Positions 20,333 through 61,560 of a stretch of DNA of 64,000 nucleotides are shown here, one piece after another. The stretch's first letter is position 1. Every line of letters starts with the position of its first letter. Made by a program: the position numbers and the translations under genes. This DNA comes from Lentisphaeria bacterium (GTDB lineage Bacteria; Verrucomicrobiota; Lentisphaeria; Oligosphaerales; Oligosphaeraceae), in NCBI GenBank assembly GCA_024405215.1, contig JAKSPB010000010.1, positions 1 through 64,000 of the forward strand, given 5' to 3'. Under the pieces are notes generated by a model that saw only the letters and a program-made list of their open reading frames with translations, was not told the origin of the DNA and made no database searches.

Positions 20333-20429
20333 ACTAGAAAGGGGCCTTGTCCTTTGCACGAAGCGCAAGCCTTGGGAAATCACCGGACTTTCCCCATGCC
20401 TGGCAGAATTTCATTCCCCCATAAAAAAA

Positions 20430-47995: not shown

Positions 47996-50221
47996 CTATG
48001 CCAGCATGCCGTTTGAGAATGCGCCGGACGCCTTCAGTTTTCCATAAAGCTCCGAGCCGTCATCGCCGAAGTTCAAGGCCACCATGTCGCTGGAGACTCC
48101 GTCGACGCGGACGGAATTGCCATCCGCCGAGTATGTCAGGCTTGAGGCATCCCAGTTCTCCAGGCTTCCTGTGGCGAACCAGAGGGTGACCCTGCCCTCG
48201 GGCGTCTGGCTGATGCAATCGTTGCCCCAATTGTCGCAGAAGCAGAAAATGTCGTCGCCGCCCTGCCCAGCCATCGAGTCGTCTCCTACGCCTCCGACAA
48301 GCACGTCGTTGTCCGGGCCTCCGACCAGGCGGTCGTTTCCCGCATCGCCGAAGAGCATATTCCGATTCGGGCCGCCCCAGATGATGTCGTCGCCGTCATT
48401 GCCGTGAATGACGATATCGGCGGTCTGGACGCTAAATCTGGCGCTGGTCATGTCCACGATGTCATTTCCTGCGCCGGCGATGATTTCATGCAGATTGTCC
48501 AGCCTGGATTGCGTGCCGCCGAGATTGTCGCATGACGCGGAGAAGATGTCGTCGGCGAAGAGCGCATCTCCGCAGGCATCGTCCGTAAGGCGCAGGATGG
48601 CGGAATTGCCCGTTCCCTCGAAGATGTCGCAGATTTTGTTTTTGCCATTGAGGCAGGCGATCTCGTCCGTGCCTTTCCATCCATTGGCGCCGCCGGCATG
48701 GATGGCGAAGTATTGATTATCCCATGTGCCGCATGGCCTGGCGAGGAAGAGGTCCGCCAGTCCGTTCTCCTTTCCCTGCAGGAGAAGCGGCCCGTCGTCC
48801 GTTTCAAATGTCGCCAGAAGCTTCTGATTCTGCAACACAGGCGTTCCGTCCATGCATTCGCTGGTGAGCGTGGCATTCCGCGCAGACATGAAGACATTGA
48901 CGCCTTCCTGGGCAACTGTAAGCGAAAGCATTTCCATGGGGGTGGCAATCGTGACGTAGAATCCGTTGTCGACGACCATCTCCGGCGTAATCTTGTCCGA
49001 CCAGTCCACCACCGCGATGGCCTTCTTCGTCGGATCGTCTATCTCGTAGTTCGGATGGATGTCAAGCAAGAGGTACACGATGTCGAGGACGTTGATTTCC
49101 TCCGGTGAATACCATCCGGTGCCGGCCTCGAAATCCTTGTATTTCTTGTCGCTCTTATAGCCCTCGAACCCCCACCCGAAATTCAGATGGTACTGGTCGG
49201 TTTCAGCATTGTATCCATCGATAAGCAACGTATGCATGATGGACTTCATGCCTGCAAAGACAGGCTGTCCGAGAGCTATGTCCGCCTGGATGCGCTCCCA
49301 TGGAATCTCTGTGGAGCCAGAGTACGTGTGTCGCTCGAAATGGAAATCCGCGCGATCCAGCAACTTCTCTTCGGCGAACGATTTGGTACTCGTGGCCTCG
49401 TCGCCGATTTCGCTATTGAGGATGAACATGGAGGCCAGCGACAAGCCGGCGATATCGTCGTCCTCGTCCCAGTCCGGCGCATCGCAGGTTATGGTTTCGA
49501 TGATTTCGTTCAGGCCCTCCAGACTTACTCCGCAGCGCTCCTGCATGTTGGTGGTGTCGATAATCTCCTTTCTGCCGTTCGTGATCCTATACATCCAATC
49601 TTCATTGGACACCTGCAACTGAAGGCCATAGCCTTGCTCCACCCAATAGTAGAGGAGCTGGGCGACGGCGGTATTGGAGCATCCGACCCTCATGTCGTCC
49701 GGCACGAATTTACTGAAGGCGTACGCAGAAAGTCCGTTTCCGCGCTGGTCCCAGTGCGTATCCAGCAGATAGGTGCCAGGTTTGGTTTCGCCCTGCGTCA
49801 CCGTTATGATCACGGAATAATCGTTGTTCTTCTCATTCGATTCCTTGACCGTATCGTAATAGTCGCTCTTCACGGTCAGTATGTGCCTGCCTTTCGAAAG
49901 GCTGCCGAGATAGACGTCTCTTGCGATGACGCCCTGCCGGTAAGTCAGTCCGTTGTTGCATTCAAGCGAATATGCCGCCACGCCGTCCACGAAGAGCATT
50001 CCCGCAAAGCTGCCTGCGGCTCCTGCATCGTAATTCACCACGGCATACGAAATGAACAGCGTATCGTCGGTCGTCAGCGAATAGGCGGAGGTATAGACGC
50101 CCTTTTCATTGGACACGATGATCCCGTCCTCCCATTCCTTCCCTGTATAAAGATACAAATCCGGAAGCTGTTCGATCGCTCTCACGCTCGATCTCGATTG
50201 CATGTCGTCAAAATCGTTCAT
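47996..50221 (-). CDS. secreted C10 (streptopain-like) cysteine protease with CARDB-like domain and RTX repeats
   Basis: 741 residues from ATG at 50221 (AAGGA 11 bases upstream); a TTG three codons earlier is less likely. No signal peptide. A beta-rich CARDB-like domain (about 30-140) precedes a papain-fold C10 protease (about 155-395): catalytic Cys in MRVGCSNTAVAQLLYYW and His in SIMHTLLIDGYNAETDQYHL, followed by NFGWG, as in streptopain. The C-terminal third carries RTX nonapeptides: NDGDDIIWGG, GDAGNDRLVGG, GVGDDSMAGQGGDDIF. RTX repeats bind Ca2+ and mark type I secretion; that machinery is not in the window. Upstream on the same strand: a decayed gene, a 51-aa peptide and a giant repeat protein. 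Confidence 0.9.
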   Translation of the reverse strand: MNDFDDMQSRSSVRAIEQLPDLYLYTGKEWEDGIIVSNEKGVYTSAYSLTTDDTLFISYAVVNYDAGAAGSFAGMLFVDGVAAYSLECNNGLTYRQGVIARDVYLGSLSKGRHILTVKSDYYDTVKESNEKNNDYSVIITVTQGETKPGTYLLDTHWDQRGNGLSAYAFSKFVPDDMRVGCSNTAVAQLLYYWVEQGYGLQLQVSNEDWMYRITNGRKEIIDTTNMQERCGVSLEGLNEIIETITCDAPDWDEDDDIAGLSLASMFILNSEIGDEATSTKSFAEEKLLDRADFHFERHTYSGSTEIPWERIQADIALGQPVFAGMKSIMHTLLIDGYNAETDQYHLNFGWGFEGYKSDKKYKDFEAGTGWYSPEEINVLDIVYLLLDIHPNYEIDDPTKKAIAVVDWSDKITPEMVVDNGFYVTIATPMEMLSLTVAQEGVNVFMSARNATLTSECMDGTPVLQNQKLLATFETDDGPLLLQGKENGLADLFLARPCGTWDNQYFAIHAGGANGWKGTDEIACLNGKNKICDIFEGTGNSAILRLTDDACGDALFADDIFSASCDNLGGTQSRLDNLHEIIAGAGNDIVDMTSARFSVQTADIVIHGNDGDDIIWGGPNRNMLFGDAGNDRLVGGPDNDVLVGGVGDDSMAGQGGDDIFCFCDNWGNDCISQTPEGRVTLWFATGSLENWDASSLTYSADGNSVRVDGVSSDMVALNFGDDGSELYGKLKASGAFSNGMLA

Positions 50222-50239: not shown

Positions 50240-50884
50240 TTAGATTGTTCCGTTTCGGCTTATGGCGCCGATGGACTCAAGAGATTCCGGAAAGTTGTTC
50301 AGCCCAATTTCGGAGACCGGTTCCTCCGATTTGCAAAACTCCTTCATGCGTGCGAGCATTGCATTGGCATCCATCCCCTCGGCAAACATATTCCCATAGG
50401 GATTCCTCGCGCTCGCCTTCGGGATTCCGTCAAATCTACGGTCGAACTTGACCAACAGCGTCTCATTGTCGACATCGAGCCTAATATAATCGGTATTGAT
50501 TTTATAGCGCATCGCTTCAGTCCAGACGATTGCCCCCGACATCCGTCCTTCCCCCAAGGAGAACTTCTTCCTCACGCCGCACCCCAATTCCGACGTCTCT
50601 TCGTCGCCTTTGTTGTCGAGAAGCCACACGGGAGCGCTCTTCCCAATGGCCGACGGCATCCCGCCAGCCTTCACGACATTCTCCCCTGCCATGGCGTTGC
50701 CCGGGTGCACGCCGCCGGATGCTTTTCTCCCCAGCGGCGTGTGTCGTCCGTAATGACGTCCACGCGGATGCCGTCGCGATCGTCATGCCCGGCCAATGCC
50801 TGAAATAGATCCCGACCTCCCGACAATGCAGGGCGACGCTTTCCGGAAGCGCCCTGCCGCCTTCAAGTCGATCTCTTCAGGCAT
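50240..50884 (-). pseudogene. frameshifted gene of unknown function after the 51-aa peptide
   Basis: ATG at 50884 (MPEEIDLKAAG), 18 bases after the peptide stop. The frame drifts: RALPESVALHCREVG, then GHDDRDGIRVDVITDD, then a 155-codon stretch from about 50725 to 50240 that stays open (GENVVKAGGMPSAIGKSAPV, EAMRYKINTDYIRLDVDNET). Two to three single-base shifts are needed, one at the GAGAAAAGC run near 50726. Rejoined, about 210 residues. Codon third positions stay G/C-rich in each segment, indicating recent decay. I do not recognise the family. The end lies 18 bases before the protease start, so all are probably one transcript. Confidence 0.6.
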
Positions 50885-52257
50885 TGGCTTTGTCGTCCGC
50901 CGCTAGAACTCCACGATCTCGTGTTCCGCGTCGTCCCCGTCGTAGGACGCCGTAAATTCTGCGGTGGAGGCGTTTTCCCACGTGCCGCCTTCGCCCCGCA
51001 TCGGCAGGGCGGCGAGTTCAACCAGCTTCGGCTCTTCGTATTCCATTGTCTTTTCCATTTGACAGCACCTCCCTTCCATTACTTGCCATTGACCATGACG
51101 CGCTTCGCCTCGCCGAGGACCCGCGCGCCGCAGAGCGGCTTCCAATAGGGAGTCACGGTCACCCCGCCTTCGCCTTCGACGCCCGCGAGGACGAGGTCGA
51201 GGCACATCAGGGACGCGAAGCCGTCGGTGTCCCCGAAGAGCTCCTCGGCCGTGTAGCCGTCGACGCTGCCGTAGAAGTCGGAGGCCTGGATTTCACGCGT
51301 GCCGTTCACGTCCGTGACGACGAAGCCGCATTCGGACGCCAGGACCGTGTCGACCGCCGAGACCAGGCGGACGCGGACGGCGTCGGAGCCGTTCGCGGCG
51401 GGGAGTTCGGCGACCTTCAGGTAGCCGCCGCCCAGGAAGCCCGCGTAGATTTCCATGTCTTCGGCGACGCAGGAGAGGCTGGCGGGACGGGTGCACGCCT
51501 CGTCGCGGAACCATCCCGCGAAGACGCAGCCTTCGACCGACGGGTTGGTGACGCCGTCGGAGAGGTCGGCGCCGGACGGCACCGGCACCGTCGTGCAAAG
51601 GTCGCCGATGTTGATCGTGACGTTGACCGAAGTCCCCTCGTCTCCGCCGCCCAGGACGAAGGAGGGCGCGAGGATCATGGAGAGGCGCATCGTCTCGTCG
51701 TCATCGTCGGCGGCATAGTCGCCCATCTTCGCCGCGTACTTCACGCAGGGAAGACCGCTGTCCGAATCCGCAACGGTGGAACTGGCAGAGCTGGAATAGG
51801 CGAGCGAGCGGGTCTTCTTGCCGAAGACCTTCACGCTGTCCTTCGTCGCGTAGAAGGGGGTGAACGAAAGCTTCTGCTCCCCTTCGCCCTCGGGAGCGTC
51901 GTTGCAGATCATCTTGCCGGAAAGCCCCTTGAAGACGTCGTCGGCCGTGTATTCGCTGTCCGCCTTCTTCGGGTCCGCGTATTTGACCACGAGCTTCTCG
52001 AAGGCGGTGGTGGAAGTCCAGGACACCGCCTCGGCGTCGAAGCCGAAGCCGATGTAGTTGGCAGGATCGTCGATGGCGGAGACAAGCGCGCAGGAGTAGA
52101 CGCCCTTGATGCGGACCGTCAGCGTCCTCGGCGTCAGATAGCCGTCGCTGATCTCGCGCACGTAGTAGTGGTCGCCAGTCTTAGGCTGAAGCTCCACGCC
52201 GCAGACGTCCTCGCGCAAGGCGGAACCAGTCGCGTCGCTCCAAAGGCCGCCGTAGAG
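50867..52257 (-). repeat. 1391-bp duplicated block, copy 1
   Basis: Matches 56253-57643 with a constant offset of 5386 bases; no difference was seen in any stretch compared. It covers the first five or so codons of the decayed gene, the whole 51-aa gene, and the last 392 codons of the large repeat protein. Flanks diverge sharply on both sides (CGTAGAGATAGCC versus CGTAGAGGCAGCC at the right end). Confidence 0.95.
50903..51058 (-). CDS. 51-residue peptide, RiPP-precursor-like N-terminus (copy 1)
   Basis: ATG at 51058 with GGGAGG 9 bases upstream, 20 bases after the stop of the large repeat protein. The peptide begins MEKTMEYEEPKLVELAALP, followed by a Gly-rich GEGGTWENASTAEF and an acidic end DGDDAEHEIVEF. 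YxxPxLxxL is a common motif in leader peptides recognised by RiPP recognition elements, as in lasso peptides; the Thr at -2 of lasso leaders is not evident and there is no Cys. No modification enzyme is intact nearby. Identical to the peptide at 56289. Alternatives: small anchor, immunity or inhibitor peptide for the neighbour. Confidence 0.7.
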   Translation of the reverse strand: MEKTMEYEEPKLVELAALPMRGEGGTWENASTAEFTASYDGDDAEHEIVEF

Positions 52258-55200
52258 ATAGCCGGACGGAATGCCATTGTAAATCTCCTTGCCGTCGACG
52301 CCGAACAATTTAGCGGTGATGTCAAAGTCATTGCCGTCCAGCTGGCTGATGCGTATGTCCTCCTGCGGGACGTCGCTACCATCCGCGGTGCAGTGGTGGA
52401 CGTGGAAGATGCCGTCCCATTGCGCCGTATAGGTTGTGTTTTCCGTGACCTTGGTCGCGATTTCCTTGTCAAAGCCGGAGAAGATGTAGTCATCCTGCAA
52501 CTCCGTGACAGGATAAGTCGTATCGCCATCGTAGCTGGGCGTGGAATCGCCTTCGAGGACGCGCGTGATCTGCCAGGGCTCGCAACCGTCGACGCCAGTC
52601 GAATAGGTGACGGTGAAGACAGTTGGCTCGTAGTAGAGCTCGTAGGCGATGCCGACCTCCGTAAGCGTCTGCGTCGCGGAGGTGCTCTTCGAACTGTTCA
52701 GCGTGTAATGCTCGATGGCGGGAATGTCCCCCAGCGTGTATGTGGTCGTCTCATCGGGATTGAAGAGGACATACTCCGCTCTGGACAGCGTCGGCACCAG
52801 AACGTAATTTGCGTTGGCGGGATTGCCGCTGAGATCCTGGTTGACGAAGCAGTCCGCCGTGACGGCCACCTGCGTATCATTGCGGTCGTAGTAGAAGACG
52901 AGGACGTTCTCATCCGCCGACGGGTTGTCGCTTGTGGCGACGAGGTAGAGCATCTTGAACGGCTCGTCCACCACGTATTTCACGATGGGCTCGAAACGCT
53001 CCGTGACGACATCCTTTGTGTTGTCATTGACGATCTTGTCATTGCGCAAAGGCTCATTGTTCTTACGATCCAGGTAGCGGACAGTGTACGGAACGACTGG
53101 CGGCTGCCGGTAGATGAATGTGTAAACGTTCTTGGTTTCGTCAAGGTCGATGAAGAGCGATGTGCTATGAACACTGGGGAACCACGTCGGAATGGATTTT
53201 GCGACAACAGTGATGTTGCTGCCGCCAAGTGCAATATCCTGAACGGGTTCGGCCAGCGTATTGCCGGCAGCGTCCTCAAAGCGCACTTCGTAATTCACGT
53301 AGGTGTCGGTTTGCCACTTGCCATAGAGGACCAGATCGCTCTTCACGACCATCTGGGTGGCGTCAAAGACGTATTCCACGCCATTTTTGTCCTTGTAGAA
53401 CCAGTTGACGAAGTTGTATCCTTCCATTCCCTCCTGCATTTCGGGGGAATCCGGCGTGGGAAGCTCGTCGACGATGCTGTCGCCCCAAGTGATCTGGTCG
53501 CTGTAAACAAGATTTTGCAGAGTCGATGTCTGGTAGGCGGTGATGTTGTAGACTGGCGGAATCCATTTGGCGTAGAGGGCGAGATTCTTGTCTGGCATCG
53601 TGTATTCCGACAGGTCAATCAACTCTCCCAGCGTTTCGGGATCCAGCGTCCAGCCCGCGAACATATAGCTGGAAGGAACATCCGCAGGATGACCGGGAAC
53701 ATAGTCCACCATTTCTGGAGCCGTTTCGGAAAGAACGGTCTGGTATTTAACTGGATTGTATTCCTTAACGATATCTCCGCCATTGTAGAACTGCAATTTG
53801 AAGGTCGCGGTGTTGTAGTAGAAATTCAACACGGTGCCGCTGCTTTTCTTGGGATCGAAGTAATATTCGCCATCTTTGACTTCCGTGCCATTCCCCAGGG
53901 TGGCTTTTGTAAATTTGAATCCTTCAAAGTCCGGATGGTTAGCTGCGTTCAGCGTGAATCCTTTCGTTTTAGCCGGCATTGTCGTGATTAGGTCATAACC
54001 GCCAGAGCCATTCTCTTTGTAATAGTTGATCTCTATTTGAGTTCCTCCATTGTCTCCCATGTAGAATGTTAAATCGCCAAGTGGCATATAGATTGCCAAG
54101 AAAGTCCAAGGATAGTCGTCATTGGGGCCTAAACTTTTTGTAGCCCATTTGGAGTTGCCTGTTTTTTGGGTTGCGGCAATCCATTCATTCATAATGTTCT
54201 GCCCCCACTTTCCGTACACGTCTAGAAGATGTGTGGATTCGTTTCGGTCAAGCAGAATGAGATGGTAGGAATTTAGTGTGCAATAGACATTGACGATTGT
54301 GCTGCCATCCACCAGGATTTCGACATCGGTGTCACCGCTGACAATCGTGTATCCCTCGTGATTCGGGAAAGTCAAGTCGCTGGCTGTAATGTCTTGATAT
54401 GAAGCGTATGGAGTCATGGTTATGTCATAACTCCTGGGGATGGTGTCAAGATATTCGTATGTTATGACAGAATTGCCTTGTTCATCTTTGACGTCATCGT
54501 TTGTTTCGCCCCAGATGATATAGCGGACTTTGCCGATGTCTGTCGTGCGCGTCCACTGTGCGGTGCAGAGGACATTGTACGCTGGCATCGTCGTCTCATT
54601 CGTGCCTTCGGGTTCCCATAACCATCCAGTGAAATCGTAGCCGGGGCGTACTGGCTCGTCGATGCTGTCAAAATCGATGGGAGTTCCATAGCGCATAAAC
54701 AATGCGTTGGGGCAATCGATGGCGCCTGCGGGCGCGAAGGAAAGGATATAGTAGTTCCGGTCATAATAGATGTTGATGACAGTGCTGCCGTCTCCCGCGA
54801 TGAGGGTGGGGTTGTTGATGTCGAACGACAGCGGACGGCGCGTGAAGCCCTCGTAGTCATGGGCGTCGTCAAGGATTGCGTTCACATCCACGGGCGAACC
54901 AGTCTGGCCGTAGAGGATTCTGGAAGCGCCTCCTGCCAAGGAGTAGTCGTTGTCGCCAACGTTCTGCTGGTAGTAATTGATCGCGTACGGGACTTCGACT
55001 GGCGTGTACGTGACCAGCGCAGTCACGGATTCCCCTCCCGTCTGCGTGTCCAGAATCTCATAGGAGACGGAAGTCTCGCCGTTGAGGGTGATAATGCAGG
55101 TCTCCGTGGTGGGATTCGGATCCAGAACTGCCTTGTAGCCGGCGTGCGGGGGAAGGGCAATGGTCTTCTGGTAATGTTTTCCAGGCATGAACTCGCCCGC

Positions 55201-55350
55201 GTACAACTGCGTGACGGCGGTGCCGCCTGGCTGCTGCTGATTGATTGTGAGGGAGAAGATGTTTTCTGCCGCATTCAAGTTGCTCACTGCAAGGGCAGTA
55301 AGAAGGCAGAAGGAAAGCAAAGGAACAATTTTTTGTAGTATTTTGTTCAT
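51079..55350 (-). CDS. giant secreted InlB-repeat/MucBP-type protein, paralogue 1
   Basis: 1423 residues. Signal peptide about 1-27 (LLSFCLLTALAVSNLNA). Listeria-Bacteroides (InlB B) repeats are visible as GYDFTGWLW...LCTAQW (about 240), MFAGWTLD...ALYAKW (about 580), GYNFVNWFYKDKNG...LYGKW (about 660), YIFSGFDKEI...YTAQW (about 965) and CVFAGWFRDEAC...IYAGF (about 1290). A MucBP-like module near 770-850 has VPYTVRYLDRKNNEP. No LPXTG or membrane anchor at the end. Such proteins are surface or adhesion proteins in gut bacteria. The last 392 residues equal those of the paralogue at 56465. A weak Shine-Dalgarno. Confidence 0.88.
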   Translation of the reverse strand: MNKILQKIVPLLSFCLLTALAVSNLNAAENIFSLTINQQQPGGTAVTQLYAGEFMPGKHYQKTIALPPHAGYKAVLDPNPTTETCIITLNGETSVSYEILDTQTGGESVTALVTYTPVEVPYAINYYQQNVGDNDYSLAGGASRILYGQTGSPVDVNAILDDAHDYEGFTRRPLSFDINNPTLIAGDGSTVINIYYDRNYYILSFAPAGAIDCPNALFMRYGTPIDFDSIDEPVRPGYDFTGWLWEPEGTNETTMPAYNVLCTAQWTRTTDIGKVRYIIWGETNDDVKDEQGNSVITYEYLDTIPRSYDITMTPYASYQDITASDLTFPNHEGYTIVSGDTDVEILVDGSTIVNVYCTLNSYHLILLDRNESTHLLDVYGKWGQNIMNEWIAATQKTGNSKWATKSLGPNDDYPWTFLAIYMPLGDLTFYMGDNGGTQIEINYYKENGSGGYDLITTMPAKTKGFTLNAANHPDFEGFKFTKATLGNGTEVKDGEYYFDPKKSSGTVLNFYYNTATFKLQFYNGGDIVKEYNPVKYQTVLSETAPEMVDYVPGHPADVPSSYMFAGWTLDPETLGELIDLSEYTMPDKNLALYAKWIPPVYNITAYQTSTLQNLVYSDQITWGDSIVDELPTPDSPEMQEGMEGYNFVNWFYKDKNGVEYVFDATQMVVKSDLVLYGKWQTDTYVNYEVRFEDAAGNTLAEPVQDIALGGSNITVVAKSIPTWFPSVHSTSLFIDLDETKNVYTFIYRQPPVVPYTVRYLDRKNNEPLRNDKIVNDNTKDVVTERFEPIVKYVVDEPFKMLYLVATSDNPSADENVLVFYYDRNDTQVAVTADCFVNQDLSGNPANANYVLVPTLSRAEYVLFNPDETTTYTLGDIPAIEHYTLNSSKSTSATQTLTEVGIAYELYYEPTVFTVTYSTGVDGCEPWQITRVLEGDSTPSYDGDTTYPVTELQDDYIFSGFDKEIATKVTENTTYTAQWDGIFHVHHCTADGSDVPQEDIRISQLDGNDFDITAKLFGVDGKEIYNGIPSGYLYGGLWSDATGSALREDVCGVELQPKTGDHYYVREISDGYLTPRTLTVRIKGVYSCALVSAIDDPANYIGFGFDAEAVSWTSTTAFEKLVVKYADPKKADSEYTADDVFKGLSGKMICNDAPEGEGEQKLSFTPFYATKDSVKVFGKKTRSLAYSSSASSTVADSDSGLPCVKYAAKMGDYAADDDDETMRLSMILAPSFVLGGGDEGTSVNVTINIGDLCTTVPVPSGADLSDGVTNPSVEGCVFAGWFRDEACTRPASLSCVAEDMEIYAGFLGGGYLKVAELPAANGSDAVRVRLVSAVDTVLASECGFVVTDVNGTREIQASDFYGSVDGYTAEELFGDTDGFASLMCLDLVLAGVEGEGGVTVTPYWKPLCGARVLGEAKRVMVNGK

Positions 55351-55439
55351 TTTAGCGCCTATTTTCTTTTTGAATTAGTGAGTTTTGGATTGATGAAGTT
55401 CAAATTTGACAATGGCCGGGCAGATTCAAAAAAAGGATT

Positions 55440-55920
55440 TCCCCAGCCAAAGCATTTCCGGCCATCCGTCCTGAAGCCAGATGAAATGGAAGAAGTCCCC
55501 GATGGCCGGCAATCCATATTTCAGGCAGAAAATGGAATTGCCGATGTCCATGGGCAGATTCAAGCCACGCCCTCTTTGTGCGAAACGGGCACGTCAATAC
55601 CCAAATGAAAGGGAACGATATACCAAAGTTGCCGTTATTGATTGACGATACGGGCTTGTCCTGTGCCCGAGGCGCAAGCCTCGGGAAAACGCAGCGTCAG
55701 AACACGCAGGCAACTTAAGTATGTATTTTCCCTTTTCCTTTTTCCCGAAAGCGCCGACATGATCCTGCCGGCAGCAGCGTCCGTTACACAGCCGCCAGCC
55801 GGTTCAGATGCCGGCGGAAGGCAAAACCATTCAAGACACGTTCAAACAAGACGACGGAAGAGCAACAATGAAAAGTTATTGTCTTTGTAAACCGTTTAAT
55901 ATAAAACATATTTTTTAATT
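55440..55920 (-). other. upstream region of paralogue 1, homologous to 61140-61560, interrupted by repeat A copy 7
   Basis: GAAGCCAGATGAAATGGAAG, GATGGCCGGCAATCC, GGAATTGCCGATGTCCATGG and later TTCAGATGCCGGCGGAAGGC recur, with changes, upstream of paralogue 2. The homology begins about 90 bases before the start of the large gene. No gene seen in 55351-56202. Confidence 0.7.
55611..55732 (+). repeat. dispersed repeat family A, copy 7
   Basis: GGGAACGATATACCAAAGTTGCCGTTATTG at the left and CAACTTAAGTATGTATTTTCCC at the right; perfect hairpin CCCGAGGC-GCAA-GCCTCGGG. It interrupts the upstream homology block; the corresponding place near 61300 upstream of paralogue 2 lacks it. Confidence 0.9.
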
Positions 55921-56202
55921 TTCAATCACATTCGCCATTTAGCCGAAGTTGATTACAATGTGCATCCACAACGGGGAAAAACAATTCCAAACGCGCACGT
56001 CTAAGCGCGTGCCGGATGCAATAAATTCACAGGCGCGGGAGTGCGTTTTGCATATCTCGGGACGCGGCTTGCCTTTATGTTGAGAAAGGCAAAGTTATGG
56101 ATAAGCCGTCCCTTCTCTCCCCCCGGGGAGAAAAAGGGATTGCATTCGGGAAACGGCTCCTCCCCCCCCAAGGAAAGTCGCCATGTCACACCTGACGCTT
56201 GA

Positions 56203-56255
56203 GACAAAGGAGGCAGTCGCCGATATGTTCGATGGCGGCGACGGCCTCCTTTGTC
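56203..56255 (-). terminator. long hairpin ending the second peptide transcript
   Basis: GACAAAGGAGG (56203-56213) pairs perfectly with CCTCCTTTGTC (56245-56255), with an inner GTCGCC/GGCGAC stem. No T-run. The right end of its stem overlaps the left boundary of the duplicated block. Confidence 0.6.
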
Positions 56256-57643
56256 GATCTCTTCAGGCATTGGCTTTGTCGTCCGCCGCTAGAACTCCAC
56301 GATCTCGTGTTCCGCGTCGTCCCCGTCGTAGGACGCCGTAAATTCTGCGGTGGAGGCGTTTTCCCACGTGCCGCCTTCGCCCCGCATCGGCAGGGCGGCG
56401 AGTTCAACCAGCTTCGGCTCTTCGTATTCCATTGTCTTTTCCATTTGACAGCACCTCCCTTCCATTACTTGCCATTGACCATGACGCGCTTCGCCTCGCC
56501 GAGGACCCGCGCGCCGCAGAGCGGCTTCCAATAGGGAGTCACGGTCACCCCGCCTTCGCCTTCGACGCCCGCGAGGACGAGGTCGAGGCACATCAGGGAC
56601 GCGAAGCCGTCGGTGTCCCCGAAGAGCTCCTCGGCCGTGTAGCCGTCGACGCTGCCGTAGAAGTCGGAGGCCTGGATTTCACGCGTGCCGTTCACGTCCG
56701 TGACGACGAAGCCGCATTCGGACGCCAGGACCGTGTCGACCGCCGAGACCAGGCGGACGCGGACGGCGTCGGAGCCGTTCGCGGCGGGGAGTTCGGCGAC
56801 CTTCAGGTAGCCGCCGCCCAGGAAGCCCGCGTAGATTTCCATGTCTTCGGCGACGCAGGAGAGGCTGGCGGGACGGGTGCACGCCTCGTCGCGGAACCAT
56901 CCCGCGAAGACGCAGCCTTCGACCGACGGGTTGGTGACGCCGTCGGAGAGGTCGGCGCCGGACGGCACCGGCACCGTCGTGCAAAGGTCGCCGATGTTGA
57001 TCGTGACGTTGACCGAAGTCCCCTCGTCTCCGCCGCCCAGGACGAAGGAGGGCGCGAGGATCATGGAGAGGCGCATCGTCTCGTCGTCATCGTCGGCGGC
57101 ATAGTCGCCCATCTTCGCCGCGTACTTCACGCAGGGAAGACCGCTGTCCGAATCCGCAACGGTGGAACTGGCAGAGCTGGAATAGGCGAGCGAGCGGGTC
57201 TTCTTGCCGAAGACCTTCACGCTGTCCTTCGTCGCGTAGAAGGGGGTGAACGAAAGCTTCTGCTCCCCTTCGCCCTCGGGAGCGTCGTTGCAGATCATCT
57301 TGCCGGAAAGCCCCTTGAAGACGTCGTCGGCCGTGTATTCGCTGTCCGCCTTCTTCGGGTCCGCGTATTTGACCACGAGCTTCTCGAAGGCGGTGGTGGA
57401 AGTCCAGGACACCGCCTCGGCGTCGAAGCCGAAGCCGATGTAGTTGGCAGGATCGTCGATGGCGGAGACAAGCGCGCAGGAGTAGACGCCCTTGATGCGG
57501 ACCGTCAGCGTCCTCGGCGTCAGATAGCCGTCGCTGATCTCGCGCACGTAGTAGTGGTCGCCAGTCTTAGGCTGAAGCTCCACGCCGCAGACGTCCTCGC
57601 GCAAGGCGGAACCAGTCGCGTCGCTCCAAAGGCCGCCGTAGAG
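56253..57643 (-). repeat. 1391-bp duplicated block, copy 2
   Basis: See copy 1 at 50867-52257. Here the downstream gene stops being similar after MPEEID; the following DNA (AAAGGAGGCCGTCGCC) belongs to the hairpin. So the block ends inside the start of a gene that is absent here. Confidence 0.95.
56289..56444 (-). CDS. 51-residue peptide, RiPP-precursor-like N-terminus (copy 2)
   Basis: Identical to the peptide at 50903-51058, including the GGGAGG ribosome-binding site and the 20-base spacing from the stop of the large repeat protein. Unlike copy 1, no gene follows; a hairpin does. Retention of the intact short frame in both copies may reflect use or merely the recent age of the duplication. 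Confidence 0.7.
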   Translation of the reverse strand: MEKTMEYEEPKLVELAALPMRGEGGTWENASTAEFTASYDGDDAEHEIVEF

Positions 57644-60600
57644 GCAGCCGCTGGAGATGCCGTTGTAGAGCGCCTTGCCGCCTGCGGGGACCAGCGGCGC
57701 GGTGATGTCGAAAATGTTTTCTCCAACGGCATCCAATCTGATCTTCTCCTTGACGTCCTTTTCGGCGTTCGGCTTGTCGCCCGTGCAGTGGTGGACGTGG
57801 AAGACGCCGGCCCACTGGGCGTAGTAGTCGGTGTCTTCATTCACCGTCGCGGCGATTTCCTTGTCCCAGCCATTGAAGACGTAATTGTCAGGCTCTTCAG
57901 GATGCGATGGAGTTGCGCTGACGTACGCGGGGGTCCCGGAGCCGGGCAGCACTTTGTTCCGCTGCAGGACGCCCTGGTTGACGCCGTCGTAATAGGTGAC
58001 GGTCACGGTAACGGGATCGTAATAGAGCAAGAACGCCATATCCGCCTTGGGCGAAGGCATTGCCTGTGTAGTCGGCGAGCTAATCTCCGTATTCAGAGAG
58101 AAGTTTTCGATGGTCAGCGGGGTGATTTCAACGGTCTGACCCGCTTCGTACTTCATCTGCTTCTGCGTATAGCTGTCCAGACGGTATTTTTCCATACCCT
58201 CCACAGTGCCATTCAGGTCCGTATTGACGTAGTATTCGACCGTGACCAGGATGTCGTTGGGATTGTAGTCGTATTCGAAGACAATGACGTTTTCCGCCGG
58301 CTGCGGCGTATTGTTGGAGACGACCATATAGCGCGTCTTGTACGCCTCCCTGACGATGTAGTTGTCAACATGGACGTATTTCTCCGTCACGACATCCAGG
58401 GGATTTACATCCACGGTCTTGGCGGTGAAGATTTCGGTGCCCGTCGCCGCATCCACGTACTTGACCATATACGGGACATTGCTGACTTTGATGTACTCGA
58501 AGGTGGCGGAATTGTCGCCGCCCTCGGTCATCGTGATGCTCTTGTCGGCGACTGTCGGGAAGTATCCGCTAATCTGCTTCGGCGTGACAATGAAGCTGGT
58601 GTCGACCGTGGCGGTGCCCGTCTGGGGATCGGCGAGCGTCTTGGCAGAGTCTTCTTCGATTTCGATGAAATAGATCGTGTATTCCGCCGTGGCCAGATTG
58701 CGCCATTTGGCATGGAGATGCATGTCTTCGGTGACATACATCGTGTCGGGGTCGAATGCACGCGCGGCGCCGGTGTCGTCCGTGTAGAACCAGCCGAGGA
58801 ACTCGTGGTTTTCCTTGGTCGGGGTGGCAAGGCCGTAAATCTTGTTGCCGTAAATCGTCACGCCCTGGAAATAGGAGGAACTCTCGGCGTCCGATGTATA
58901 GGCGAGGACATTGCATTCCGGAGCCTTCCAGCGGGCGTAGAGGATCAAACTCGACGCGGGCATCGTGATTGTGCTGAGATCAAGCGGCGCCGAACCGCCA
59001 TCGGGAGACAGCGACCAGCCGTCGAAAAGATAGGCGGAGGGAATGGTGTCGGGAAGCGAGGGAGCCGTTGACAGGGAGCTGGCAGTATTCAGCGGCATCT
59101 CGAACTTAAGGCTTTCCGTTGACACGTTTTCCTTGCCGTTGTTCAGAACCAGATTGTAGCTGTTGCGCTTGTACTTGAGCTGCGCACCACCCCAGTTGCC
59201 TCTGTTTGTATAGCCATGGTAGTAAGCAAAGCCATCAATGTCAATCTTGTCTTCATCGGTCATGGTGACGCTGGATGTCTTCTGGATTGGAACAGCAGCA
59301 AGAAGTTCGTATTTGACACCTTCGTAGGTTATTATATTGGCCCCCGTAGCAGTTTGGTCCAGGCATTCGATGTAATAGCTGCCAGTGTACGTATTTCCGC
59401 CAGTCTGAGCCATGTAGTACGTTCTGTTTTCCTTGGGCATGATCTGAAGTAAACCCGTGTATGGAGAACCACCCCTAACGCTTCTTGACCATTTCGCATT
59501 CTTAGCCAGCTGGGTTATGTCGCTCCATCTGGAGGAAATGTTTTCATCCCATTTGGCAGTTATGGTTGATGTTTTTGTATAAGCGGATTCCTGCGATGGT
59601 TCTTGAGAAGTTGACGCATACTTCATCGTAATGGTGAATGTATTTCTGTCATAGAAGACATTCAGCACGGAGGTGCCGTCGGCCTTCACCACAACGCTGG
59701 TCTCTGTTTTGCCAGTGTTAATGTTATAAAGACTGGTGTTAAGCTTGCAGTCGTCGCTGTGGGTGTGTTCGGTCATACCGCAGGAATAGCATGCTGCGGT
59801 ATGGATATGGCTGCAGGTGTTTTTGGCGTTATAGACGTAATGGTAGGTGCCTGAAAACCTTTGGCGCACTCTATAATTGCCAGAGACATTATCACTACTG
59901 GATTTATACCATTTTCCATCATAATATAGCCAATAATCACTACTTCTTCTGTAAATGCTTCCGGAAGCAAGCGAACCTTCAAGATTTGTAAAATTGCTTA
60001 CATATGTGCTGTTTACGGTTTGTTGTGTTGTGCTGGTGGCTCCATAGCATGTCACGTCGTGGACGTGAGAGCAATTTAAACATTCATCCGTATGCTTATG
60101 CTCCTGCTTTCCGCAGGCGTAGATGGTAAGCGTCGACGGATCGATGGTGTATGTGGAATCGACGGGAGCTGAGACGATGCTGGTGGTCAGGTAGGCGTAG
60201 TTGGCGTCGTTGGCGTTCTCGCCCCAGACGACGATGGAGACGTTGGCGTTCGGGGCGGTCAGCGTCCACTGGGCGGTGCAGATGGTGTTTGCGGCGGGCA
60301 TGTTGGACGGGACGGCTGGCGACCATCCCGCGAAGGTATAGCCAGGCTTCCTCGGCGTCGATACGGTGCCGATCTCGGCGTCGAAGGGCAGATACTGCGA
60401 TGCCGTGGATTCGACGGCGCCCGCGGTGTCGAAGGAGAGCAAATAGTAGTTGCGGTCGTAGAAGACCTTGACGACCGTCGAGCCGTCGGCGGCGATGGTC
60501 ATTGCGTTGAAATCGCGCATCGTGAAGCCGGCGGCTACGGCGCTATGCCTGTTGACGATGGCCTCGGGGTCCACGGCGGAGCCGGTCATGCCGGAGAAGG

Positions 60601-61060
60601 TCTCGGTGGCGACTTTCTCGAATTGCGTGTTGTCAACAAGCGACTGATGGTAGTATTCCGCCTTGTAGACTTGGAGGATAGGCACGAACACGATGTCGAC
60701 CACGATGTCCCCTGCCTTCTGCGTGCCATCGAAGCTGTAGGTGAACTTGTAGTCGGCCGCCGAAAAATCGAATATCAGTCCTTCAGCCGTCGGCTTGACA
60801 GGCAGACTGGGCATATATCCCGAGTAGGTCGGGAAGCGCGGGATGGCGATGGTTACTGCCGGATACGCCTTCTGGGCTTCGAAATCGCCTGTATATGCGG
60901 TGGTGATTTCCGAACCGTTTTGAAGTTTGAAATTGACGGTCAGATGAGAGTACTCCGTCGACCCGTCGGCCATTGCAGGCAAACTGCCGATGAACATCAG
61001 CAAAATGCCGATGAGCCCAAAAACGGAGAATTTCCTTTTTTGATGATTATTTCTTTTCAT
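56465..61060 (-). CDS. giant secreted InlB-repeat/MucBP-type protein, paralogue 2, with His/Cys-rich insert
   Basis: 1531 residues. Signal peptide about 1-32 (FGLIGILLMFIGSLPAMA); AAGGG precedes ATG. The order of modules follows paralogue 1: YTFAGWSPAVPSN...CTAQW, YLFDGWSLSPDGG...LYARW, HEFLGWFYTDD...LHAKW, YMVKYVDAATGTEI (MucBP-like), YVFNGWDKEIA...YYAQW, and the shared 392-residue end. Between about residues 315 and 445 is an insert with CGKQEHKHTDECLNCSHVH and CSHIHTAACYSCGMTEHTH, a Cys/His pattern known from surface proteins of gut Firmicutes and probably metal binding. It lacks a sorting signal. Confidence 0.88.
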   Translation of the reverse strand: MKRNNHQKRKFSVFGLIGILLMFIGSLPAMADGSTEYSHLTVNFKLQNGSEITTAYTGDFEAQKAYPAVTIAIPRFPTYSGYMPSLPVKPTAEGLIFDFSAADYKFTYSFDGTQKAGDIVVDIVFVPILQVYKAEYYHQSLVDNTQFEKVATETFSGMTGSAVDPEAIVNRHSAVAAGFTMRDFNAMTIAADGSTVVKVFYDRNYYLLSFDTAGAVESTASQYLPFDAEIGTVSTPRKPGYTFAGWSPAVPSNMPAANTICTAQWTLTAPNANVSIVVWGENANDANYAYLTTSIVSAPVDSTYTIDPSTLTIYACGKQEHKHTDECLNCSHVHDVTCYGATSTTQQTVNSTYVSNFTNLEGSLASGSIYRRSSDYWLYYDGKWYKSSSDNVSGNYRVRQRFSGTYHYVYNAKNTCSHIHTAACYSCGMTEHTHSDDCKLNTSLYNINTGKTETSVVVKADGTSVLNVFYDRNTFTITMKYASTSQEPSQESAYTKTSTITAKWDENISSRWSDITQLAKNAKWSRSVRGGSPYTGLLQIMPKENRTYYMAQTGGNTYTGSYYIECLDQTATGANIITYEGVKYELLAAVPIQKTSSVTMTDEDKIDIDGFAYYHGYTNRGNWGGAQLKYKRNSYNLVLNNGKENVSTESLKFEMPLNTASSLSTAPSLPDTIPSAYLFDGWSLSPDGGSAPLDLSTITMPASSLILYARWKAPECNVLAYTSDAESSSYFQGVTIYGNKIYGLATPTKENHEFLGWFYTDDTGAARAFDPDTMYVTEDMHLHAKWRNLATAEYTIYFIEIEEDSAKTLADPQTGTATVDTSFIVTPKQISGYFPTVADKSITMTEGGDNSATFEYIKVSNVPYMVKYVDAATGTEIFTAKTVDVNPLDVVTEKYVHVDNYIVREAYKTRYMVVSNNTPQPAENVIVFEYDYNPNDILVTVEYYVNTDLNGTVEGMEKYRLDSYTQKQMKYEAGQTVEITPLTIENFSLNTEISSPTTQAMPSPKADMAFLLYYDPVTVTVTYYDGVNQGVLQRNKVLPGSGTPAYVSATPSHPEEPDNYVFNGWDKEIAATVNEDTDYYAQWAGVFHVHHCTGDKPNAEKDVKEKIRLDAVGENIFDITAPLVPAGGKALYNGISSGCLYGGLWSDATGSALREDVCGVELQPKTGDHYYVREISDGYLTPRTLTVRIKGVYSCALVSAIDDPANYIGFGFDAEAVSWTSTTAFEKLVVKYADPKKADSEYTADDVFKGLSGKMICNDAPEGEGEQKLSFTPFYATKDSVKVFGKKTRSLAYSSSASSTVADSDSGLPCVKYAAKMGDYAADDDDETMRLSMILAPSFVLGGGDEGTSVNVTINIGDLCTTVPVPSGADLSDGVTNPSVEGCVFAGWFRDEACTRPASLSCVAEDMEIYAGFLGGGYLKVAELPAANGSDAVRVRLVSAVDTVLASECGFVVTDVNGTREIQASDFYGSVDGYTAEELFGDTDGFASLMCLDLVLAGVEGEGGVTVTPYWKPLCGARVLGEAKRVMVNGK

Positions 61061-61139: not shown

Positions 61140-61560
61140 TGTTTTCGGCCATCCGGCGTAAGACCAGATGAAATGGAAGAAAGTTCCCGATGGCCGGCAA
61201 CACCTATTCCATGCAAGAAACGGAATTGCCGATGCCCATGGTCAAAATCAGGACATCGCCCGTCAGAACACGACACCGCCTTCCTTGTGCGACATTCCGT
61301 CCTCAAGCACAGACCCGTTAGTCCCAACGGGAGACCTGCGCCCCGTACATGTTGGCACACCCCTGTTTTTTGCTTCTTTCCCGAGAAAGAAGCCGGACGA
61401 CCACTGCCAGCCGTGGCGTCCCTCCGTCGTCATCAACCGATTCAGACGCCGGCGGAAGTCAAAGCCATATCAGGTTTACATGCGAGAAACTCAAGGAGAC
61501 GGTGGCATCATGACTTGCCACTATCGTAAATCCATTAATATAATTTATTTCTTCTAATTT
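61140..61560 (-). other. upstream region of paralogue 2, homologous to 55440-55920
   Basis: AAGACCAGATGAAATGGAAG, GATGGCCGGCAACACC, GGAATTGCCGATGCCCATGG and TTCAGACGCCGGCGGAAGTC align with the region before paralogue 1. The shared control region suggests similar expression. The rest of 61061-62311 shows one repeat (copy 8) and no convincing gene. Confidence 0.7.

Follow-up and report, generated by a model that had tools for sequence, protein, structure and literature searches.

Probable recent one-way transfer of a gene tail and its peptide gene between diverged tandem InlB-repeat paralogues in a Lentisphaeria bacterium

In a bacterium of the class Lentisphaeria, the 3' end of a gene for a large secreted protein has probably been copied, recently and in one direction, onto its diverged tandem paralogue, together with the small peptide gene that follows it. 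The window, i.e. the whole stretch of DNA analysed here, comprises the first 64 kb of the 73,351-bp contig C2 in an assembly of 2.98 Mb and 82 contigs. All relevant genes lie on the minus strand, with gene 2 transcribed first and gene 1 second. Base-by-base alignment of 50867-52257 (copy 1, the probable donor) with 56253-57643 (copy 2, the probable recipient) yielded 1391 bp with 0 mismatches at a constant offset of 5386 bases, in agreement with the identical block reported in the original prediction. This exact match cannot be extended by a single base at either end, it is the sole long exact repeat of the 64-kb window, and a chance origin is out of the question. At the same offset, identity is about 25% just below the block (lower coordinates), which is the random level, and 56% just above it (higher coordinates), before dropping to 30-40%. 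The block contains neither silent-site nor intergenic differences, and the divergence between its two copies has a 95% upper bound of 0.2%.

Gene 1 (51079-55350, minus strand) encodes a 1423 amino acid long protein of the secreted or surface type with Listeria-Bacteroides (InlB-type) repeats (PF09479, E 1.2e-16; PF18998). Gene 2 (56465-61060, minus strand) encodes a 1531 amino acid long paralogue, of which the N-terminal part is about one third identical to gene 1 and the last 392 residues are identical. The PF09479 repeats were detected in both proteins, with 61 and 79.5 bits against a cut-off of 27 and with four stretches each. With its start at codon 1032 of gene 1, the block comprises the last 392 of 1423 codons in gene 1 and of 1531 codons in gene 2, which corresponds to about one quarter. 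Upstream of the block, protein identity between the two is about 30-36% in most 100-column stretches and increases to 50-57% over the last 90 codons; when codon-aligned, the 30 codons directly preceding the block share 57% of their nucleotides and 50% of their amino acids. The leaders of gene 1 (55455-55572, minus strand) and gene 2 (61142-61261, minus strand) are 81% identical and homologous as collinear pieces of 77-86%, and because of this homology the gene pair is considered an old tandem duplication. The leaders (about 81%) are more alike than the N-terminal coding parts, which, judged from the sequences, may reflect either diversification of the N-termini or conservation of a regulatory leader.

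Behind the 392-codon tail, the block continues with a peptide gene, a short spacer and the first 22 nt of a hairpin. The peptide gene encodes 51 amino acids (MEKTMEYEEPKLVELA... in copy 1), is preceded by a GGAGG ribosome-binding site and is located at 50903-51058 in copy 1 and, in identical form, at 56289-56444 in copy 2, both on the minus strand; the peptide has no match in Pfam or NCBIfam. In copy 1, these 22 nt belong to a 97-bp hairpin (50792-50888, minus strand) between the peptide and protease genes, with its 5' arm inside and its 3' arm outside the block. Pairing of the terminal 22 nt of the block with the following 150 nt reaches -31.7 kcal/mol in copy 1, and 0 of 2000 dinucleotide shuffles were as low. 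The corresponding value in copy 2 is -18.5 kcal/mol, which is reached by 615 of 2000 shuffles and thus represents the chance level.

Only copy 1 is followed by a gene for a Peptidase C10 (streptopain-type) protein with CARDB and RTX repeats (47996-50221, minus strand), in which the C10 domain scores 46.1 bits against a Pfam cut-off of 26. This organisation suggests that the copy 1 locus produces a secreted protein, a companion peptide and an RTX-exported cysteine protease from one transcript, with the hairpin positioned between peptide and protease. A third locus on contig C3 shows the same gene order, i.e. big protein, YExPxL peptide, strong hairpin and C10-RTX protease, and because the full order is present there, copy 1 is regarded as the complete arrangement. 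The big protein of the C3 locus is 2203 amino acids long, contains DUF285/BspA-type and InlB-type repeats and has a tail that is 36% identical to that of the block. The two C10-RTX proteases are 43% identical, and the candidate catalytic residues C181 and H330 of the copy 1 enzyme are kept in the C3 homologue. Sequences related to parts of the C10-RTX protease occur throughout the class, unlike the tail family.

Several further features of these loci were observed. At both loci, a small acidic peptide with a YExPxL motif (50906-51058 in copy 1 and L007:6868-7071) is encoded between the genes for the big protein and the C10-RTX protease. The motif resembles leader sequences of some ribosomally made peptides, and no maturation gene was seen near the peptide genes; as an alternative guess, the peptide could be a partner or inhibitor of the protease. 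The peptide gene on C3 is followed by two strong hairpins in succession (L007:6740-6860), of which the second consists of repeated TTCTAGAA-like units. An open frame of about 100 amino acids (50240-50544), which has no Pfam or NCBIfam family match, lies between the hairpin and the C10 protease of copy 1 and is missing at the C3 locus. The stretch following the C10 domain (residues 440-590 of the C10 protease) recurs class-wide in numerous large open frames of the secreted type, with 40-57% identity, and apparently represents a common RTX-linked C-terminal domain. The third C10 peptidase domain of the genome is located within a 5202-amino-acid open frame (G000:C12:38938-39603, L009).

Beyond the downstream end of the block, the two flanks are unrelated, with the hairpin arm in copy 1 and the remnant of an IS30-like element in copy 2 (55976-56248, plus strand; 70% identical to G000:C78:18440-18721). 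The transposase of the remnant starts with an ATG at 56183 on the plus strand (MSHLTLETKEAVADMFDGGDGLL), remains in frame for 22-23 codons and is cut at the block edge; its DNA homology to the C78 relative ends at 56248, five bases short of this edge. At the protein level, the remnant matches the C78 homologue with 1e-4. The C78 homologue bears a transposase with an HTH_38 domain (PF13936, 1e-12), the N-terminal domain typical of IS30-type transposases, hence the designation IS30-like; a Pfam search with the window remnant itself gave no match, as it is too short. Because the window copy stops at codon 22-23 and lacks both the DDE catalytic domain and terminal inverted repeats, it is referred to as an IS30-like remnant and not as an IS30 element. 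The copy 2 joint (56203-56255) contains a 12-bp perfect inverted repeat (GACAAAGGAGGC/GCCTCCTTTGTC) and the four bases CTTT. The arms of the repeat occupy 56203-56214 and 56244-56255, and the last three bases (GTC) are the first of the block. CTTT can be assigned to neither the block nor the aligned IS relative, and the octamer CTTTGTCG at the joint recurs 17 nt deeper in the block. Copy 2 ends in an orphan hairpin arm, with neither a second arm nor a protease gene behind it.

A boundary within the fifth or sixth codon of a next gene, as originally proposed, was not recovered, because the ATG at 50884 or 56270 opens no credible gene. In copy 1 it starts a 33-codon frame within the hairpin, and the frame that it opens in copy 2 runs antisense to the truncated IS30-like transposase; a next gene at the block edge was consequently rejected.

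The original prediction gave no direction of transfer, whereas the flanks indicate that it ran from copy 1 to copy 2. Since these flanks differ in kind, an intact hairpin on one side and a cut transposase on the other, the direction can be argued from one genome. Copy 1 appears to be native and the probable donor because only there does the hairpin arm find its partner beyond the block edge, and copy 2 would then carry the new joint; hairpin pairing and the cut transposase together mark the copy 2 edge as derived. The hairpin argument would be weaker if the hairpin arms had been nearly the same in both copies before the event. Relatives carrying the locus were not found among 48 genomes of the order and 388 of the phylum, and the pre-event form of gene 2 was not seen among them.

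The proposed course would start from old tandem paralogues, both encoding large InlB-repeat proteins. In this scenario, the 1391 bp of copy 1, comprising the 392-codon tail, the peptide gene and the start of the hairpin, would have been copied one way and would have replaced the 3' part of gene 2. At its upstream end, the exchange could have been mediated by pairing, presumably of the RecA type, within diverged but homologous coding sequence. In a one-step course, the downstream end of the same event would have been joined illegitimately, or by template switching, into the IS remnant, as in homology-facilitated illegitimate recombination (HFIR). In a two-step course, a deletion associated with the IS would first have brought the hairpin arm and the cut transposase together, and an ordinary gene conversion would later have extended as far as this limit of homology; the direction would in this case be deduced from the hairpin pairing only. 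The one-step course is somewhat likelier. Either course would leave gene 2 with its own N-terminus, the tail of gene 1 and the peptide gene, with no protease gene behind.

Two other explanations are unlikely and still deserve consideration. The block could be an assembly effect, in which the assembler either collapsed two similar but non-identical tails or introduced the second block itself. The assembly is fragmented into 82 contigs, and an exact direct repeat of 1391 bp exceeds short-read inserts. On the other hand, the contig contains no N, and outside the block the copy 2 joint has no more than a few bases in common with copy 1, which leaves no k-mer for a false join. On the upstream side, no exact match between the two loci reaches 25 nt over about 950 bp, and the longest one is found at a considerable distance from the block. 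A collapse would moreover need both block ends in both loci, so that at most a few differences would have been lost. A wholly false second block is therefore unlikely, while a few real differences inside the block may have been lost.

It is similarly improbable that the tails are homogenised by ongoing two-way conversion without a single donor, or by conversion in the reverse direction. The rise in protein identity toward the block, from about 33% to 50-57% over the final 90 codons, could be produced by older conversion tracts, and GC3 peaks in the block, but the hairpin pairing and the cut transposase mark the edge of copy 2 as derived.

There is very little to recommend a mobile cassette of tail and peptide gene that inserts behind different N-termini. 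The block does form a neat functional unit with its peptide gene, it is GC-rich (GC3 0.89), and its end adjoins an IS remnant. Against this, the whole-genome assembly contains exactly two copies of the block, plus the relative with 36% amino acid identity on C3, and further copies were found neither in the 388 phylum genomes nor in viral contigs or plasmids. The tail family was likewise not detected in any other genome among 48 of the order and 388 of the phylum, and a scan of the genome contigs returned unrelated repeat proteins only. Neither a recombinase nor a target duplication nor terminal repeats flank the block, GC3 increases gradually without a step at its boundary, and the leftover IS part is a truncated transposase start that faces the block. 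The original prediction of a recent conversion or cassette transfer of the 3' third plus the peptide gene thus agrees with the data as regards the transfer into a diverged paralogue, with 392 codons or about one quarter, and is not supported as regards the cassette. That an old duplicate tail was kept identical by purifying selection because both tails do the same job is scarcely credible, since 1391 bp without a single silent or intergenic difference already contradict it and the tail tolerates change, the C3 paralogue's tail being only 36% identical.

GC content also provided no indication of foreign origin, which was rejected: GC3 climbs smoothly through gene 1 and gene 2 and reaches its peak of 0.89 in the block, and the C3 tail has a high GC3 as well. 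A single-sequence structure prediction of the tail reached a pLDDT of 36.8 and was discarded.

The preferred reading, a recent one-way transfer from copy 1 into gene 2, resembles several known processes. Ectopic (intragenic) gene conversion between tandem paralogues likewise produces a one-way, exact tract in diverged surroundings with an upstream end in homologous coding sequence. Gene conversion is characterised by a tract of near-perfect identity in paralogues whose remaining sequence has clearly diverged, and such a tract is present here. Both ends of such a tract should lie in homologous sequence, which applies to the upstream end, whereas the downstream flanks are unrelated and the present genome has no homology beyond the tract; the downstream end would conform only if an older deletion had made the present edge. 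HFIR is known from S. pneumoniae, A. baylyi, P. stutzeri and E. coli; in its known events about 1 kb is inserted, a deletion of similar size occurs, and the illegitimate joint usually shows 3-10 bp of microhomology (PMC3240628). The joint anatomy of the present case would fit one homologous and one illegitimate end, the insert is likewise of about 1 kb, and at most a few bases may be common to both sides of the joint, with GTC belonging to the block as well as to the 12-bp inverted repeat. However, HFIR is defined with incoming foreign DNA, while here the copied DNA would stem from the adjacent gene, and a history of two steps also fits.

Similar arrangements are found in the displacement of T6SS/Rhs effector modules (PMC5361080), where a shared anchor combined with non-homologous exchange replaces one end of a gene for a large secreted protein and, with it, the small gene that follows. 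Those loci combine a constant N-terminus with a variable toxic tip, whereas here the C-terminal tail and the peptide are shared and the N-termini differ; the likeness concerns the arrangement only and implies no toxin or immunity role. In Porphyromonas gingivalis rgpA/kgp (PMC5266723), large secreted proteins with differing N-terminal parts also share C-terminal modules that are shuffled by recombination, but these proteins and this phylum are unrelated to those described here, and the single genome considered here does not imply repeated exchange.

The class of recombination is already well known, and the process is an ordinary one that left an unusually informative scar within an old transposon fragment. 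The locus provides a clean, readable case in which a bacterium has probably copied the end of a gene for a large secreted protein onto another such gene. It also brings out a small module that is so far lineage-restricted and consists of a large InlB-repeat protein, a YExPxL peptide, a hairpin and a C10-RTX protease. There is a slim chance that the shared tail serves as a recombination handle or standing switch through direct-repeat crossing-over between the blocks. If so, crossing-over would delete 5386 bp and place the N-terminus of gene 2 before the tail, the peptide and the C10 protease, and a surface protein linked to a protease would change its exposed part in a single step.

An Rfam search of the window returned no matches, including for a dispersed element of about 115-130 nt that occurs at 20423, 27968, 28099, 42685, 47679, 55603 and 61776. 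This element has at least 44 matches genome-wide with 76-100% identity, and its consensus contains an inner hairpin, CCCGAGGC-TTGC-GCCTCGGG, and the near-terminal inverted repeats AGTTGCC...GGCAACT. By these features, it is a candidate for a MITE-like element or an undescribed RNA. One copy is located upstream of each paralogue, at positions that do not match.
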